DNA of 30,532 nucleotides from a virus: positions 1-30,532 of IMG/VR virus record IMGVR_UViG_3300020401_000061; one strand, given 5' to 3'. Shown here piece by piece: positions 3,612-22,668 of this stretch. The notes beneath the pieces were generated by a model. The model was not told the origin of the DNA and did not search any database. It saw only the letters and a program-made list of their open reading frames with translations. The position numbers and the translations under genes were made by a program. Every line of letters starts with the position of its first letter. Position 1 is the stretch's first letter.

Positions 3612-5192
3612 ATGCATATTGGTATGCCAACAGAACCAAAAGAGTTAGCAAAATACTACAAAGAAAAGTTTGAAAAAGCTAAGACAATACGTCAGCACTT
3701 TGAAGATGTGTTTGATGATTGCTACGAATATACAATGCCTATGCGAGAAACATTTAAATCGAAGACCATAGGAGAACGTAGAGATGAAAAAATATTTGAT
3801 GAAACTGCTGTCGTTGGAGTACAAGAATTTGCATCAAGACTCCAGCAAGGACTTGTCCCCAACTTTGCTCGTTGGGCTGATTTTGCTGCTGGCTCAGAGA
3901 TACCACTAGATGAACGAGATGAAATAAATAATGAACTGGACTTTATAACTGAGTATGTTTTTGAAGTATTACAAAACTCAAACTTTGCTCAAGAGGTTCA
4001 TGAGTCTTTTATGGATTTGGCTGTTGGTACTGGTATCCTTCATGTTTCTGAAGGTGATGCTATTAATCCAATATCTTTTTCTGCTATTCCATTACCTCAT
4101 GTAGTTCTCGATGTTGGTCCTGATGACAACATAGACCATGTATATAGAGAAAGACAGATACGCTATTCTGACTTGCACATCTTGTTTCCAGATATAACTC
4201 TGCCACAAGAACTTACAAACTCAATGATTTCTAAACCTGATGCTAAAACAAAGTTATTAGAAATTGTTTGTAAAGATTATTCAAAACTAAATGAAGATGC
4301 ATTTATGTATATTTGTATAGAGCTTGATACTCTAAATGTTTTGAAACAAGAATCTCTTACTGGTACTGGTAGCAATCCATATATATGTTTTCGTTGGAAT
4401 ACTTGTGCTGGAGAAGTCTATGGTCGAGGTCCAATCTTTAACTGCTTGAGTGCAATCAAAACTACCAACCTCACAGTAGAATCAATACTTAATAATGCAG
4501 CAATGGCTATCTCCGGAATATATCAAATGGATGATGATGGTGTTATAAATCCAGATACAATTAATCTAGTGCCTGGAACTGTAATTCCAAAAGCACCGAA
4601 CTCTGCTGGGTTACAACCAATCAAACAAGCTGGTGACCTAAACTTCACTAACTTTGTATTAAGTGATATGCGTCAGAATATTAAGAGAGCATTGTATAAT
4701 GATATGCTTGGTAATCCAGATAGAACACCAGCAAGTGCAACTGAAGTTGCAGAAAGAATGGCAGACCTAAGTAGACGTATGGGTTCTGCTTTTGGTAGAC
4801 TGCAAGCTGAGATGGTACAGCCAGTACTACAGCGTGTTGTTTATATCTTGAAGAAACAAGGTCGCATAGAAATACCAACAATCAATGGAAGACAGATAAA
4901 AGTAAAGTCTGTGTCTCCACTAGCACAAGCACAATCTAATCAAGACATATCTGCAATAGCTAGATGGTTAGAACTTGTAGGAGGTTCTTTTGGTCCACAA
5001 ACAATTAACCTATTAGTTAACACAGAAGAAACAGCAGCACATCTTGCAAGAAAGTTTGGTGTACCTGATACTTTGATTAGAGATTTAGAAGAACGCAAAC
5101 TATTAGTACAAACTGCACAGCAGTTAGCACAACAATCAATGATGCAACCACAGAATATGGAGCAAGCACCAAATGAACAAGCAGCAGAGTAA
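3612..5192 (+). CDS. Portal (head-to-tail connector) protein, T7 gp8-like
   Basis: A 526-residue protein close to the T7 gp8 length of 536. It would form the dodecameric ring at the capsid vertex through which DNA is packaged and ejected. The N-terminal helix with YYKEKFEKAKTIRQHFEDVF and YEYTMPMRETF, the central FRWNTCAGEVYGRGPIFNCL, and a long C-terminal helix with NPDRTPASATEVAERM fit the head-tail connector family. The C-terminus is Gln/Asn-rich. The ribosome site is AGAAGG ahead of the ATG at 3612; a second in-frame ATG lies at 3624. Its last 20 bases overlap the next gene. Confidence 0.93.
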   Translation: MHIGMPTEPKELAKYYKEKFEKAKTIRQHFEDVFDDCYEYTMPMRETFKSKTIGERRDEKIFDETAVVGVQEFASRLQQGLVPNFARWADFAAGSEIPLDERDEINNELDFITEYVFEVLQNSNFAQEVHESFMDLAVGTGILHVSEGDAINPISFSAIPLPHVVLDVGPDDNIDHVYRERQIRYSDLHILFPDITLPQELTNSMISKPDAKTKLLEIVCKDYSKLNEDAFMYICIELDTLNVLKQESLTGTGSNPYICFRWNTCAGEVYGRGPIFNCLSAIKTTNLTVESILNNAAMAISGIYQMDDDGVINPDTINLVPGTVIPKAPNSAGLQPIKQAGDLNFTNFVLSDMRQNIKRALYNDMLGNPDRTPASATEVAERMADLSRRMGSAFGRLQAEMVQPVLQRVVYILKKQGRIEIPTINGRQIKVKSVSPLAQAQSNQDISAIARWLELVGGSFGPQTINLLVNTEETAAHLARKFGVPDTLIRDLEERKLLVQTAQQLAQQSMMQPQNMEQAPNEQAAE

Positions 5193-5451
5193 ACCAGTTA
5201 TACAAAGTCAGATAGATGGATTTCCTAGATATCAGGAAGATGATGAAACTATAAGTTTAAATATGCATGCATTGTTTAACTCACCAGTTGGTAAAGAGGT
5301 GTTAAAATATTTGAGAAGTATAACTATAGAAGCAGTGCATGGGTCAGCTGTAACAGATGAAGTCTTACGACATGCTGAAGGTTCAAGATATGTTGTAGGT
5401 GTAATCGAAAGAAGAATTAAAGAAGGTGATAAAATAGCAAGAGAGGACTAA
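5173..5451 (+). CDS. Bbp19-like small structural protein
   Basis: This 92-residue protein overlaps the portal gene by 20 bases in another frame. The central segment ALFNSPVGKEVLKYLRS and the later RHAEGSRYVVGVIERRIKEG match the layout of the Bbp19-type domain, named for Bordetella phage BPP-1: a G-x-x-V-L helix, then an E-G-x-R-x-V helix. The family lies next to portal and scaffold genes in podoviruses and its exact role is not settled. The assignment rests on pattern recognition and position. Confidence 0.65.
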   Translation: MNKQQSKPVIQSQIDGFPRYQEDDETISLNMHALFNSPVGKEVLKYLRSITIEAVHGSAVTDEVLRHAEGSRYVVGVIERRIKEGDKIARED

Positions 5452-5452
5452 C

Positions 5453-6229
5453 ATGAGTGAAGAACAATCATCAACAACAGTAGCGGAACAAGTAGAAACT
5501 AACAATACCCCTACATCCACAGAAGCTCCACAAGCTCCACAAGCTCCACAAGAGGAACAACCTATAGATTCTATGGGTGAACGACCAGCTTGGTTACCAG
5601 AAAAATTTAAGACAGCAGAAGACATGGCTAACTCTTACTCACAACTAGAAAGTAAGATAAGTCAGAAAGAAGATGATATTAAATCACAAGTTATGAAAGA
5701 TTTGGAAGCAGAAGCATATAAAGACAGACCTGAAAAGAAAGGTGATTACATATTACCAGAGGGTATAGATGAAGAGCTTGCAAAGAGTAATGAGTTATTA
5801 GAGTGGTGGGCTGAACAGTCTTTTGAGAATGGATATAGCCAAGATGAGTTTGCCGAAGGTATAGAGATGTATAAAAAGGCGATGAACATTGGCACTACTG
5901 ACCCACAAGCTGAGATGAAGAACTTAGGTGATAATGCTTTGGAAAGAGTGCAAGCAGTAGAGCTATGGTCAAATAAATTTTTTACACCAGAGCAACATGC
6001 ACAAATAGCAAATCTTTGCTCAACTGCTGATGGTGTTAAGGCTATGGAAACTGTAATGAATGCTCTTAAAACTACTACATCTATTGGTGATGCTGCACCT
6101 ACTGGTCAACAAACAGAAGATGGTCTTAGAGAAATGATGAGAGATGAAAGATACTGGAGTATGACAAAGCGTGACCCAAACTATGTTCGTCAAGTAGAAG
6201 AAGGTTTTCAAAAACTATATAACAAATGA
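5453..6229 (+). CDS. Scaffolding (capsid assembly) protein, T7 gp9-like
   Basis: A 258-residue acidic protein lying between portal and capsid genes, where the assembly protein is expected; T7 gp9 is 307. The N-terminus is disordered and includes three copies of APQ encoded by a nine-base repeat near 5525-5553. Then comes the motif RPAWLPEKFKTAEDMANSYS, common in podovirus scaffolds, followed by helical segments. The C-terminus MMRDERYWSMTKRDPNYVRQ with FQKLY is the capsid-binding end typical of this family. It would template prohead assembly and leave before DNA entry. Confidence 0.9.
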   Translation: MSEEQSSTTVAEQVETNNTPTSTEAPQAPQAPQEEQPIDSMGERPAWLPEKFKTAEDMANSYSQLESKISQKEDDIKSQVMKDLEAEAYKDRPEKKGDYILPEGIDEELAKSNELLEWWAEQSFENGYSQDEFAEGIEMYKKAMNIGTTDPQAEMKNLGDNALERVQAVELWSNKFFTPEQHAQIANLCSTADGVKAMETVMNALKTTTSIGDAAPTGQQTEDGLREMMRDERYWSMTKRDPNYVRQVEEGFQKLYNK

Positions 6230-6747
6230 CATATATTCAGAAAGGACAGTTTGAGTTCAGACCATGTAAACTTTCTGATGTAGACCATCTTGTTAATAAT
6301 CTAAGACTATCTGATGTACGAGAATGTGCATTAGTTGGTGCATCTCCAGAGATGGCACTAGCTGTTCCTTTTATGGAAGATGGTGCAAAGGGATTTACAA
6401 TAACACATAAAGGTACACCTATTGCTATGTGTGGTGTTACACCTCTTGATGATGTTATGCATGTTGGTAGAATATGGTTTCTTGGTACAAATACTGTAGA
6501 TAAACACTGGCTTACTATCTTCAAACACAGCAAATTGATACTGTCATTTCTTAAAATAGATTATGATTTTGTGGAAAATTTTGTACCACAAGACCAGATA
6601 CAAACAATAAAATGGCTAGAAAGTATGGGATTTCATCAAGAAGAAGACCCATATTATTTTGATTCTGTACCCTTCATTAAACTTTTCTATTGCAATTTAG
6701 ATAATTTTGAGCAAAGAATTAGTAAGTCAAGACCCACTATGCACTAA
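6226..6747 (+). CDS. T7 gp13-like protein (GNAT-fold)
   Basis: A 173-residue protein of the T7 gp13 type (DUF2833), a GNAT-like fold. Supporting segments are FEFRPCKLSDVDHLVNNLR, SPEMALAVPFMEDG, then GTPIAMCGVTPL, and the late ENFVPQDQIQTIKWLESMGF, which matches the acetyltransferase 'N..N..i.wl..lGF' element. In T7 the 138-residue gp13 helps virion assembly, and catalytic activity is not established. Here the gene overlaps the scaffold by four bases and precedes the capsid gene; in T7 gene 13 follows gene 12, so the order differs. Confidence 0.8.
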   Translation: MTYIQKGQFEFRPCKLSDVDHLVNNLRLSDVRECALVGASPEMALAVPFMEDGAKGFTITHKGTPIAMCGVTPLDDVMHVGRIWFLGTNTVDKHWLTIFKHSKLILSFLKIDYDFVENFVPQDQIQTIKWLESMGFHQEEDPYYFDSVPFIKLFYCNLDNFEQRISKSRPTMH

Positions 6748-6828
6748 GTGACCCCTTGTGGATAATCATGTTGAGGTGCAAAACGGACAATCAGCGACGT
6801 AACTGAAACTTAACAATGGAGCTGAATA

Positions 6829-7644
6829 ATGGCAAATACAATTGACGTAGCCTTTATTAAACAGTTCGAGTCTGATGTTCACATGGCATATCAGCGTATG
6901 GGTTCTAAACTACGGAATACTGTGCGTACTGTTGGCAATGTAGCTGGAAACGTAGTTCGTTTTCAAAAGATTGGAACTGGTACTGCATCTACTAAATCGA
7001 GAAATGGTATGGTAACACCTATGGAGCTAACACATACAACTGTGGAAGCAACCATGAATGATTTCTATGCTGCCGAATATATCGACAAACTAGATGAACT
7101 TAAAACTAACATCGATGAAAGACAAGCAGTAGCACAAAGTGCTGCGGCTGCTCTTGGTCGAAAAACTGACGATATCCTGTATACAGCAATGGATGCTGGA
7201 GCTAACTCAACTCAAATACATGATACAAGTGGTGCTGTTGAAAAAGCAGACTTGTTGACATTGTTTGAAACTTTTGGTTCTGCAAACATTCCTGAGGATG
7301 GTGGTCGTTATCTTGCTATGCACCCAAAGGGATTTGCAGACTTATTTTTAATTAATGAGTTTGCATCATCTGACTTTGTTGGTGAGCAGAATCTACCATT
7401 CGCTGGTGGTATGACAATGAAGCAGTTTCTAGGCTTCAACATATTCTCTACCTCTGCAATTACTGCTGGTAAGAACATGGCTTATCATACTACTGCTGTA
7501 GGATTAGGCGTGAACTCTGATGTTTCTACAGAGATAAATTATATCCCTGAGAAAGCATCTCATCTTGCAACATCTATGATGTCAATGGGTGCTGTTGTTA
7601 TTGATGACAATGGTATCTATGAAGTCTTAGATAATAACACATAG
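6829..7644 (+). CDS. Major capsid protein
   Basis: This 271-residue protein has the signature of a known podovirus capsid family: FIKQFESDVHMAYQRMGSKL, GTASTKSRNGMVTPMEL, then YAAEYIDKLDELKTNIDERQ and AAALGRKTDDIL. It is shorter than T7 gp10A (345) and belongs to a different HK97-fold branch. The later part (LAMHPKGFADLFLINEFAS, MKQFLGFNIFSTSAI) is the domain found near the end of such capsid proteins. An 81-base untranslated leader with a good ribosome site (ATGGAG) precedes it, one of the largest gaps in the late operon, which fits strong separate expression. Confidence 0.92.
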   Translation: MANTIDVAFIKQFESDVHMAYQRMGSKLRNTVRTVGNVAGNVVRFQKIGTGTASTKSRNGMVTPMELTHTTVEATMNDFYAAEYIDKLDELKTNIDERQAVAQSAAAALGRKTDDILYTAMDAGANSTQIHDTSGAVEKADLLTLFETFGSANIPEDGGRYLAMHPKGFADLFLINEFASSDFVGEQNLPFAGGMTMKQFLGFNIFSTSAITAGKNMAYHTTAVGLGVNSDVSTEINYIPEKASHLATSMMSMGAVVIDDNGIYEVLDNNT

Positions 7645-19465: not shown

Positions 19466-21694
19466 ATGACCATATCAGTATCAAATAATACACCAAGAGT
19501 GTCATATTCGGTTGCTCAAGGGCAAACACAGACCTCTTTTACAGTAAATTTTGAGTTCTTTGCAGCAGCAGACCTGAATGTATTTGTAGACAATGTGTTA
19601 AAAACAATCACCACTCACTACACAGTATCAGGTGGCAATGGTTCAACAGGAACAGTTGCCATGAGTGTAACAGGAGCAAGTGGTGGGTCAACTGTAGTCA
19701 TAACAAGGGACATAGCTCTTGAAAGAACAACAGACTTTCCAGTTTCTGGTGCATTTAATATATCTTCTCTAAATACAGAGTTAGATAAACTAGTTGCAAT
19801 AGATGCTGATGTTGATGATACGATTGGAAGGTCAATAAGATTACAAGATTCTGATGCTGCTGCATCTATGGAGCTACCTCTCAAAGCAGCAAGAGTAGGT
19901 ACAGTTATGGCTTTCAATGCTACTTCTGGTGCTGTTGAAGCTGGACCAAGTATTTCTTCCGTAGCGACTGTAGCAACGCAGTCAGCCAACATAAATACTG
20001 TTGCTGGTATAAGTGCAAATGTAACGACTGTGGCTGGTATACACGCAAATGTGACCACTGTAGCTGGTATATCAAGCAATGTTACGACAGTTGCTGGAGT
20101 TTCTAGTAATGTAACGACAGTTGCTGGTATTCACGCTAACGTCACAACAGTTGCTGGCATAGCTAGTGATGTTACAGCTGTTGCTGGCATCTCAAGTGAT
20201 GTAGCTGCTGTTGAAAATATCAAAGCAAATGTTACAACTGTTGCTGGGATTGCAAGTAACGTAACTACTGTTGCTGGAATAGCATCAAATGTAACAAGCG
20301 TAGCTAATATAGCATCAAATGTGACTACAGTTGCTGGCATAAATACAACGCATTTATCTAATGTGTCTGGTGTTGCTTCTAATGTTGCTCTTCTTGGTAC
20401 TTCTGATGCAGTATCTGACCTCAATACTTTGGCGGCAATCTCAAGTGATATAACATCTTTGGCAAATTCTCTTGAGAAGACGTATACAGTTACTGTTGCT
20501 AATGTAGGTGGCTCGAATGTTTTTGTTCTCGATGGTAGTAACTATCCAGCTATCGAGATGTTTAGAGGTAATACTTATATTTTTAATTTAAATGATGCTA
20601 CCAACGATGGTCATCCACTAGTATTTAAGAACGGAAGTTCTGCGTATGAAACTGGTGTTACATATTTTCTTAATGGTTCTACAGCATCACAATCAGACTT
20701 TGTAAATGTCACAACATTTAATGCTGGTCGAAACTCTGGTGATAGAAAAGTACAGATAGAAGTTGCTACTTCTGCTCCTTCTTCTGGATTGAGATACTAC
20801 TGCTATGTGCATGGTAATGCAATGGGTAATACAATCACAGTCAAGGATAGTAATATATCTCTTGTTGCTGGTTCGATTGCAAATGTAAACTCCGTCGGTG
20901 GTGGTTTAACAAATGTAAATACAGTTGCTGGTGCAATAGCGAATGTAAATACTGTTGCGACTAATGTATCTGGTGTAAATAGTTTTGCTGAAAGATATAG
21001 AGTTGGTTCTTCTGAGCCTACTTCAAGTCTTGATGCTGGCGATTTATTTTTTAATACATCAACAAATGAACTGAGAGCATATAATGGTAGTTCGTTCCAA
21101 GCAACTTCTCCTTCTGCTTCTGACCAAAATAATATAAATATTGTTGCTGGTGAAATAACTGCACAGGAAGATTTAGGTTCTATTGCTAATCCTGTGTCTA
21201 CAAGTTCTGGTAATAATATAAATACTGTGGGTCAAGCTATTGCTAATGTAAATACAGTTGCTGGAATATCTGCAAATGTAACCACAGTCGCTGGTATTTC
21301 TTCTAATGTAACATCAGTTGCTGCAATTGCATCTAATGTAACAACAGTTGCAAGTAATATTTCTGGGTTAAATAGTTTTGCTGAGAGATATCGTGTGGCA
21401 AGTTCTGCACCAACCAGTTCTCTTGATGCTGGTGACTTATACTTCAATACAACAGCCAATACTCTGAATTACTATAATGGTTCATCATTTGTGCCAGTTG
21501 TTGCTGGTGCAATGACATCTCTTTTAGTAGATACATCTCCACAACTGGGTGGCAATCTTGACGTAAATGGTCAAAGTATTGTATCTGCATCTAATGGAGA
21601 TATAACTATTGCACCTAATGGTGCTGGAGAGATAAATTTAAATGGTACTGTCAATACTGACAACTTAACAATAGACTTTGGGAGTATAGCATAA
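19466..21694 (+). CDS. Tail fibre with T7 gp17-type N-terminus, decapeptide repeats and cupredoxin-like domain
   Basis: A 742-residue fibre (T7 gp17 is 553). Residues 1 to about 140 are the T7-type attachment domain (VSYSVAQGQTQTSFTVNFEF, IALERTTDFPVSG, LNTELDKLVAIDADV). Residues 173-292 are twelve ten-residue repeats of the form SNVTTVAGIA. Residues 338-461 resemble a cupredoxin, with H383 in DGHPLVF and C446, H449 and M453 in YYCYVHGNAMG. Two 39-residue modules starting FAERYRV follow, sharing 30 identical residues, separated by more VTTVAG repeats. The end carries NGDITIAPNGAGEINLNG, shared with many phage fibres. The last base overlaps the next gene. Confidence 0.9.
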   Translation: MTISVSNNTPRVSYSVAQGQTQTSFTVNFEFFAAADLNVFVDNVLKTITTHYTVSGGNGSTGTVAMSVTGASGGSTVVITRDIALERTTDFPVSGAFNISSLNTELDKLVAIDADVDDTIGRSIRLQDSDAAASMELPLKAARVGTVMAFNATSGAVEAGPSISSVATVATQSANINTVAGISANVTTVAGIHANVTTVAGISSNVTTVAGVSSNVTTVAGIHANVTTVAGIASDVTAVAGISSDVAAVENIKANVTTVAGIASNVTTVAGIASNVTSVANIASNVTTVAGINTTHLSNVSGVASNVALLGTSDAVSDLNTLAAISSDITSLANSLEKTYTVTVANVGGSNVFVLDGSNYPAIEMFRGNTYIFNLNDATNDGHPLVFKNGSSAYETGVTYFLNGSTASQSDFVNVTTFNAGRNSGDRKVQIEVATSAPSSGLRYYCYVHGNAMGNTITVKDSNISLVAGSIANVNSVGGGLTNVNTVAGAIANVNTVATNVSGVNSFAERYRVGSSEPTSSLDAGDLFFNTSTNELRAYNGSSFQATSPSASDQNNINIVAGEITAQEDLGSIANPVSTSSGNNINTVGQAIANVNTVAGISANVTTVAGISSNVTSVAAIASNVTTVASNISGLNSFAERYRVASSAPTSSLDAGDLYFNTTANTLNYYNGSSFVPVVAGAMTSLLVDTSPQLGGNLDVNGQSIVSASNGDITIAPNGAGEINLNGTVNTDNLTIDFGSIA
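19982..20341 (+). repeat. Twelve tandem 30-base coding repeats in the tail fibre
   Basis: The DNA encodes twelve consecutive decapeptides of consensus [SAH]-[AS]-N-V-T-T-V-A-G-I (residues 173-292) without insertions or deletions. Codons vary between copies, so the array is old or kept at the protein level. Single further copies occur near 20870-20965 and 21233-21358. Such short hydrophobic-polar periods fit a trimeric fibre shaft (coiled coil or triple beta spiral). It is not a CRISPR array. Confidence 0.9.
20984..21493 (+). repeat. Duplicated 117-base fibre module
   Basis: Two in-frame copies at 20984-21100 and 21377-21493 each encode 39 residues beginning FAERYRV and including PTSSLDAGDL and YNGSSF; 30 of 39 residues are identical. 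The 276 bases between them hold more VTTVAG-type repeats. The duplication suggests fibre length evolved by module copying. Confidence 0.85.
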
Positions 21695-22668
21695 TGGCAA
21701 AACTTTTAAAATTAAGGGGTGGCACAACTTCCCAACATAGTTCTTTTACTGGTGCTGACAGAGAAGTTACAGTTGACACAGATAAAGAAACATTAGTTGT
21801 GCATAATGGCTCACAAGCTGGTGGATTTCCATTAGCAAGAGCTGATGGTTCTGGTACATCGAACTTTACAATCACTGGCGAACTCGATTGTGCAACGCTG
21901 GATGTAAGTGGTGATGCTGATATAGACGGTACACTTGAAGCTGATGCAATAACAATCGGTGGCACAGCAATAGCATCTGTTCTTAGTCCTGTAGCTGGTA
22001 GCTCAAGCATTGTTACAACTGGTGCTTTGGATAGTGGCTCTATTACAAGTGGCTTTGGAAATATCGATGTTGGGTCATCGTCTGTAACTGCGAATGGTGG
22101 TGTTGTTGTTGATAACATCACAATAGATGGAACAGAGATAGATTTGTCCTCTGGTAATTTAACTATAGATGTTGCTGGAGATATTATTCTTGATGCTGAC
22201 GGAAACAAAGTTAAATTTTCAGATGGTGGAACAGAAATAGGTATGTTTCAAAATTCAAGTTCTGATTTTGTAATCGAATCAAGGGTTCAAGATAAAGACA
22301 TCAAATTATCTGGAAATGATGGTGGCTCTGGTATAACAGCACTCACACTCGATATGTCTGAAGCTGGTGCTGCAACATTTAATAACAACGTAACTGCTTT
22401 TTCTGATGAAAGACTTAAAGATAATATTGAAACTCTTGATGGTGGATTGTCAAAGATATTAAGCATGAGAGGTGTAACATATACTAGAGATGGTAAAGAT
22501 AATGTTGGTGTCATAGCACAAGAAGTAGAAAAAGTTATACCACAAATTGTAAAAACTGCTGATGATGAAATGGGAACAAAGTCTGTAGATTACAGTAGGA
22601 TTACTGCTGTGTTAATTGAAGCAGTTAAAGAACTTACAAAAAGGGTTGAAGAGCTGGAGAACAAATAA
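21694..22668 (+). CDS. Tail fibre with S74 intramolecular chaperone domain
   Basis: A 324-residue fibre. The start LLKLRGGTTSQHSSFTGADR with TVDTDKETLVVHNGS is a common N-terminal fibre module in marine phages. The middle is a beta-strand repeat region (GDADIDGTLEADAITIGGTA). Residues of about 235-324 form a peptidase S74 chaperone domain: FSDERLKDNIETL, GVIAQEVEKVIPQIV, DYSRITAVLIEAVKEL. S237 and K242 fit the Ser-Lys pair, five apart, that cuts just before the serine in endosialidase-type fibres. Mature fibre would be residues 1-236, with an 88-residue chaperone released. It is coupled to both neighbours by TAATG overlaps. Confidence 0.92.
   Translation: MAKLLKLRGGTTSQHSSFTGADREVTVDTDKETLVVHNGSQAGGFPLARADGSGTSNFTITGELDCATLDVSGDADIDGTLEADAITIGGTAIASVLSPVAGSSSIVTTGALDSGSITSGFGNIDVGSSSVTANGGVVVDNITIDGTEIDLSSGNLTIDVAGDIILDADGNKVKFSDGGTEIGMFQNSSSDFVIESRVQDKDIKLSGNDGGSGITALTLDMSEAGAATFNNNVTAFSDERLKDNIETLDGGLSKILSMRGVTYTRDGKDNVGVIAQEVEKVIPQIVKTADDEMGTKSVDYSRITAVLIEAVKELTKRVEELENK

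Follow-up and report, generated by a model that had tools for sequence, protein, structure and literature searches.

A cupredoxin-like domain with a type-1 copper ligand set in an exchangeable part of a viral tail fibre

Tail fibres that bind iron through HxH motifs have been described (T4 gp37; Alteromonas phage R22Y) and form the background of the "Ferrojan" or Trojan horse hypothesis (PMC11705849). The fibre considered here, encoded in a 30.5-kb virus record that was analysed over its full length (the window), resembles these systems in that a metal ion is proposed to sit on the fibre of a marine phage and might target the host's uptake of metal; it differs from them in fold, in metal and in ligands. 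HxH motifs are missing from this fibre, as no two of its histidines (at residues 51, 193, 223, 296, 383 and 449) are two residues apart; because of this, and because fold and ligands are others, the likeness to the iron Trojan horse is an analogy of role only.

Cupredoxins have long been known. Plastocyanin, pseudoazurin and azurin (PF00127, TIGR02656) share with the fibre domain the predicted fold class, the order and register of the His-Cys-His-Met ligands and the C-x2-H loop, whereas the fibre domain scores below the curated cut-offs, reads HP, not HN, at the first ligand and belongs to a family with an H-x2/3-M loop in place of the H-x4-M loop of plastocyanin. The plastocyanin family consists of free periplasmic or lumenal electron carriers, whereas the domain is here part of a phage fibre without an export signal. 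Copper nitrite reductase (NirK) and the multicopper oxidases (CotA, CueO and small laccases) gave the best fold matches in the PDB and likewise hold the domain embedded in a larger protein; they differ in that a second copper centre was not recognised in the fibre, and the matches reach TM scores of only 0.35 to 0.58. The At5g54830-like domain (PF25489) was matched by seven relatives of the fibre domain (best E value, 1.9e-7) and not by the window domain itself.

Domains of cyanophage baseplate-wedge and related proteins (PHROG 708, gp7; PHROG 677, gp9 connector; PHROG 30742, tail fibre) are homologous to the fibre domain (phrog_708, E value 3.2e-12). Most copies have all four ligands, and some are accompanied by a second, ligand-less tandem copy. 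In the records examined they are annotated as baseplate wedge, tail fibre or hypothetical protein, never as cupredoxin. Searches of open papers for cupredoxin, plastocyanin or blue copper in connection with phage tails (subscription papers and preprints being outside the scope) gave no description of the domain, and what is new, as far as the open literature searched is concerned, is a type-1 ligand set within phage fibres and baseplates.

The fibre gene and the predicted fold of its domain

The product of the fibre gene (Table 1) matched phrog_21412 (E value, 7.9e-52), and phrog_1640 covered residues 4 to 111. Residues 1 to 130 were 72 to 98% identical across 80 fetched viral contigs, and by analogy with T7-type fibre organisation this N-terminal part would attach the fibre to the virion. 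The original prediction had read a cupredoxin with a blue-copper ligand set into residues 338 to 461 (window positions 20477 to 20848), citing the motifs YTVTVANVGG, RGNTYIFNLND, DGHPLVF and YYCYVHGNAMG. All four motifs are present at these residues of the plus-strand frame, and the numbering given for H383, C446, H449 and M453 (codons starting at 20612, 20801, 20810 and 20822) is right. The compact domain that we delimited, at about residues 334 to 463, encloses this stretch. The gene that follows the fibre gene (window positions 21694 to 22668) has, as judged by eye, an end resembling an S74-type intramolecular chaperone (FSDERLKDNI ... GVIAQEV).

Table 1. Features of the fibre gene and of its domain (window positions)
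Feature	Position	Strand	Basis
Tail fibre gene, 742 aa, carrier of the domain	19466..21694	+	Open frame; matches to PHROG models of tail fibres and tail proteins
N-terminal part of the fibre, about aa 1-164	19466..19957	+	Comparison with viral contigs and L212
Shaft of decapeptide repeats, type ANVTTVAGI (aa 183-292); the exchangeable part begins	19958..20464	+	Repeat positions; no L212 DNA match
Cupredoxin domain with predicted type-1 copper site, fibre aa 334-463	20465..20854	+	AlphaFold2; PDB fold search; homologue conservation
H383, predicted copper ligand 1, in loop before strand at model residues 52-56	20612..20614	+	
Insertion of ~29 residues (aa 400-428), two short predicted helices ("long form" of the domain)	20663..20749	+	
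C446, predicted copper ligand 2, at strand end (model residue 113)	20801..20803	+	
H449, predicted copper ligand 3 (C-x2-H)	20810..20812	+	
M453, predicted axial ligand	20822..20824	+	

AlphaFold2, supplied with an alignment of 118 relatives from viral and genome contigs, returned a mostly beta model with two short helices at a pLDDT of 95.1 and a pTM of 0.90 (pLDDT of 36.5 without an alignment). The model contains ten strands of three or more residues, as for a Greek-key beta-sandwich of about eight strands, with the Cys at a strand end and the second His and the Met at the start of the last strand. Given these positions, the register of all four ligands with those of known cupredoxins and their joint loss (below), the four side chains may be expected to lie close in space, at one end of the barrel. 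Cupredoxin domains were present in 44 of the best 50 matches of a PDB fold search (best E value, 4.2e-4; TM scores moderate), among them Hyphomicrobium copper nitrite reductase, CotA, bilirubin oxidase, CueO, small laccases, rusticyanin and AcoP; the other 6 were all a single protein, SO1698 of Shewanella. Among predicted structures of viral proteins, the named matches were mostly marine phage proteins, including structural and tail-fibre proteins of cyanophages (TM score up to 0.77).

Kinship with cupredoxins was fainter at the level of sequence. The window domain alone gave nothing above cut-off against Pfam, PF00127 with its curated cut-off included, and no usable match among PDB sequences. 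A search with the family profile reached plastocyanins (E values, 0.074 to 0.084), with Cys, His and Met aligned to the plastocyanin ligands, and pseudoazurin (E value, 1.2), and a profile-profile comparison with nine independently collected PF00127 sequences aligned all four ligands (probability, 78%; E value, 1.8e-5). Copper-bind was matched weakly by 10 of the 118 relatives (best E value, 0.0016) and the TIGR02656 plastocyanin model, also weakly, by one (E value, 0.0048). The residue after the first ligand His was Asn in 9 of 9 PF00127 controls (H45 N46) and Pro both here and in 96% of the relatives. The domain is thus a member of the cupredoxin superfamily by fold and ligands and is not to be filed in PF00127, since its fold and ligands match while all matches to Copper-bind and TIGR02656 are weak. 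A Flavobacteriaceae protein (locus L203, 1501 to 1731) scores above the PF00127 cut-off, is found by the family profile (E value, 8.5e-8) and has HPF at ligand 1; it is a sequence bridge between PF00127 and the fibre-domain family.

Conservation and joint loss of the ligands

The fibre has the pattern His ... Cys-x(2-4)-His-x(2-4)-Met as H383, C446-x2-H449-x3-M453, with H-x3-M between ligands 3 and 4 where most relatives have H-x2-M. The ligand pattern is no coincidence. In a diverse alignment of 19 sequences only eight columns were invariant, four of which were the ligands H, C, H and M. Among 80 non-redundant relatives, H383, C446 and H449 were each found in 79 and M453 in all 80. Codons at the His and Cys positions varied synonymously only (CAT/CAC, TGT/TGC), and dN (0.07 to 0.31) was several-fold lower than dS (0.5 to 2.4, with some dS values saturated).

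A wider set of 97 non-redundant domains, in which more cyanophage baseplate proteins were included, held all four ligands in 91. The expectation of the original prediction that homologues would keep the Cys and His therefore stood for these 91 and failed for the other six, in which H383 and C446 were gone together; the second His was gone as well in five and seemingly present, at an uncertain place of the alignment, in the sixth. Loss of a single ligand was not seen among the 97 domains. Ligand-less copies occupied at least three places in a 90-row tree and comprised second tandem copies in cyanophage gp7 (one clade), a small protein of PSS2 and, in a Flavobacteriaceae protein, one of the tandem copies; with related copies taken as one, the six stand for about three or four independent losses. 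In these alignments, the all-or-none pattern fits what a metal site would predict. The persistence of ligand-less copies also means that the site is dispensable for the fold. Two domain copies, one with all ligands and one without the site, occur side by side in the proteins of loci L074, L075, L192, L295, L298, L299, L300 and L301, which lend themselves to a natural comparison between versions with and without the site.

The helical insertion of the long form (about 25 to 29 residues, Y-x-(I/L)-(N/D)-G ... F-x-x-A) is common to pelagiphage-like fibres and cyanophage gp7 (the window and loci L053, L074, L076, L193 and L294) and is missing in about 85% of non-redundant relatives.

Occurrence in phages and cells and behaviour as a cassette

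Ocean viruses often carry the domain. At least 572 relatives were found in IMG/VR, among the 600 pattern matches listed, and 281 phage records contained a domain match, nearly all of them from phages of Synechococcus, Prochlorococcus, Pelagibacter and Methylophilales. Annotated carriers are the baseplate proteins gp7 and gp9 and the tail fibres of Pelagibacter phages Baldr and HTVC028P and of P-SSM2 and Bellamy; the statement in the original prediction that similar domains occur in structural proteins of marine phages is hereby borne out for baseplate proteins and tail fibres of cyanophages and for tail fibres of pelagiphages. Cultured carriers include Pelagibacter phages Hodr, Baldr and HTVC028P, cyanophages P-HM2, S-TIM5 and P-SSM2, and Methylophilales phage Melnitz. 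The capsid protein of the window was, among phage records, nearest to that of Pelagibacter phage EXVC031P Hodr (53% identity), and Hodr, the nearest cultured relative found, carries the domain with four ligands in a gene that spans the start of its circular record. The locus tags of Hodr and Baldr appear to be swapped between their GenBank records (OQ414636.1, locus L072, and OQ414635.1, locus L208). The capsid protein of "Dunaliella viridis virus SI2" (HQ332136.1/NC_023841.1) is marine-podovirus-like and 31% identical to that of the window, and this virus may be a bacteriophage and not an algal virus.

Cellular copies were found when genomes were scanned with a four-sequence alignment as query (a single-sequence query gave no match). 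Loci with phage-type genes, such as T7-like fibres in Pelagibacteraceae assemblies (L165-L190), were counted as phage or prophage and not as cellular, and lipoprotein and secretion signals of the cellular carriers were read by eye. The domain is carried by lipoproteins of SAR86, by lipoproteins of marine Euryarchaeota and, in Opitutae and Flavobacteriaceae, by large secreted proteins. One SAR86 lipoprotein with a lone cupredoxin domain (locus L183) lies on a 471-kb contig with metabolic genes adjoining, and its gene neighbourhood gave no clue to function; within positions 3764 to 7231 it is followed, after 18 bases and on the same strand, by the gene for a 966-residue, apparently secreted protein. 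In a marine archaeal lipoprotein (locus L164, 3230 to 4327), the domain comes last, at the end of a collagen-like stalk of Gly-x-x repeats. Phage and cell copies were interleaved in the 90-row tree, which has too few columns to show whether the domain passed from cells to phages or the other way; because they interleave, the domain is an extracellular module common to marine microbes and their viruses.

Within fibres, the domain behaves as an optional cassette of the exchangeable region: of 64 complete fibres whose N-termini are related, only 6 had it. A domain-less fibre (locus L212) has an N-terminus 98% identical to that of the window fibre, and at the DNA level the two were 83% identical up to position 19957, a point ahead of both the shaft repeats and the domain, and not again until 20942, where a short common stretch (20942 to 21067) begins. 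Similarity to loci L214, L218 and L219 also ends sharply at 19957 (about residue 164), a recombination boundary inside the fibre gene. Conversely, domains 80 to 90% identical to that of the window sit behind very different N-termini. The domain lies near the C-terminal end of the fibre in Baldr (residues 603 to 711 of 759) and HTVC028P (residues 613 to 719 of 767). Cassette behaviour and distal position together put the domain in the portion of the fibre exchanged between phages, which normally decides host contact, and it is this position and shuffling that point to a possible role of the domain in host contact. An obligatory aid to folding, suggested in the original prediction beside metal sensing and the binding of a surface ligand, is disfavoured, since 58 of those 64 fibres do without the domain and ligand-less copies persist in cyanophages.

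Proposed copper loading and host contact, and competing explanations

The presence in the fibre of a cupredoxin-like domain with a type-1 ligand set, all four ligands being in register with PF00127 proteins, is confirmed. Probably, residues 334 to 463 are an optional-cassette cupredoxin with an intact type-1 set that is loaded with copper after lysis and serves host contact. The fold, the conservation and joint loss of the ligands and the cassette behaviour are computed results; copper is the presumed metal, most likely one ion per domain. Free copper in the host cytoplasm is kept extremely low. Because the fibre is made there, loading would probably take place after lysis, outside the cytoplasm, in the lysate or in seawater. 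The loaded domain would then most likely act in adsorption, either because the metal fixes the ligand loop as a rigid binding surface or because copper is offered to a copper-binding or uptake protein on the host surface, as proposed for iron-loaded fibres. Cytoplasmic phage assembly is an unusual place to make a type-1 copper protein and counts against this explanation, as do the moderate TM scores, the failure to reach any Pfam cut-off and the Pro in place of the second-sphere Asn.

The same cytoplasmic synthesis and the same Pro would suit a metal-free cupredoxin-like fold, a plain adhesion module in which the ligand residues are inherited and the site is empty on the virion. We regard this as improbable, as purifying selection holds four otherwise functionally unrelated residues together across many phage and cell lineages, and the four vanish jointly and not singly. 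That copper, or some other soft metal, does no more than rigidify the domain, as a decoration resistant to seawater and proteases without a part in receptor binding or redox chemistry, is unlikely. Beta-sandwich modules are frequent decorations of fibres, the domain is also found in baseplate gp7 and gp9, away from the fibre tips, and its relatives are virion proteins, lipoproteins or secreted proteins, all of which would agree with a structural metal; however, the ligand-less copies in cyanophage gp7 and PSS2 indicate that the fold needs no metal, and the occasional loss of a single ligand might be expected with a structural metal and was not seen.

A redox function, with Cu(I)/Cu(II) cycling at the host surface that would, for example, oxidise a surface group or sense redox state before DNA ejection, would draw on the type-1 ligand set and on C-x2-H-x2/3-M loops resembling those of electron-transfer cupredoxins such as amicyanin and plastocyanin. 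However, the fibre showed neither a recognisable partner domain nor a second copper centre or haem protein, the open literature searched gave no precedent for such a role, and we consider it very improbable. It is most unlikely that the domain is immunoglobulin-like with a chance YYC...H motif. Sequence profiles did touch antibody V domains (E values, 0.003 to 0.06), and the structural matches among phage proteins include one that bears the name of an Ig-domain protein; yet none of the best 50 fold matches was an antibody or Ig protein, Ig domains lack a conserved H...C-x2-H-x-M set, and the fibre, with C446 as the only cysteine in its 742 residues, can form no Ig disulfide. With no Ig protein among those 50 fold matches, the V-domain profile matches were put down to effects of composition and of the YYC motif, and the immunoglobulin-like reading is contradicted at the level of the predicted fold.

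Returning to a copper-loaded domain in host contact, we think it doubtful, though worth stating, that marine phages widely display type-1 sites, loaded with copper after lysis, on their fibres and baseplates and so engage copper-binding or uptake proteins on host surfaces. If they do, this would be the copper counterpart of the iron Trojan horse, and phages would be a pool of copper ligands in seawater. The domain gives a name to what hundreds of records now list as hypothetical, baseplate wedge or tail fibre proteins, and the cultured phages that bear it make the copper question testable now. If the site holds copper, phages of very abundant ocean bacteria (SAR11, Prochlorococcus and Synechococcus) would bear, on the apparatus with which they contact the host, a class of cofactor known from electron-transfer enzymes; copper availability would be a possible factor in adsorption, virions would count among the organic ligands of copper in seawater, and the iron Trojan horse hypothesis would gain a testable partner.
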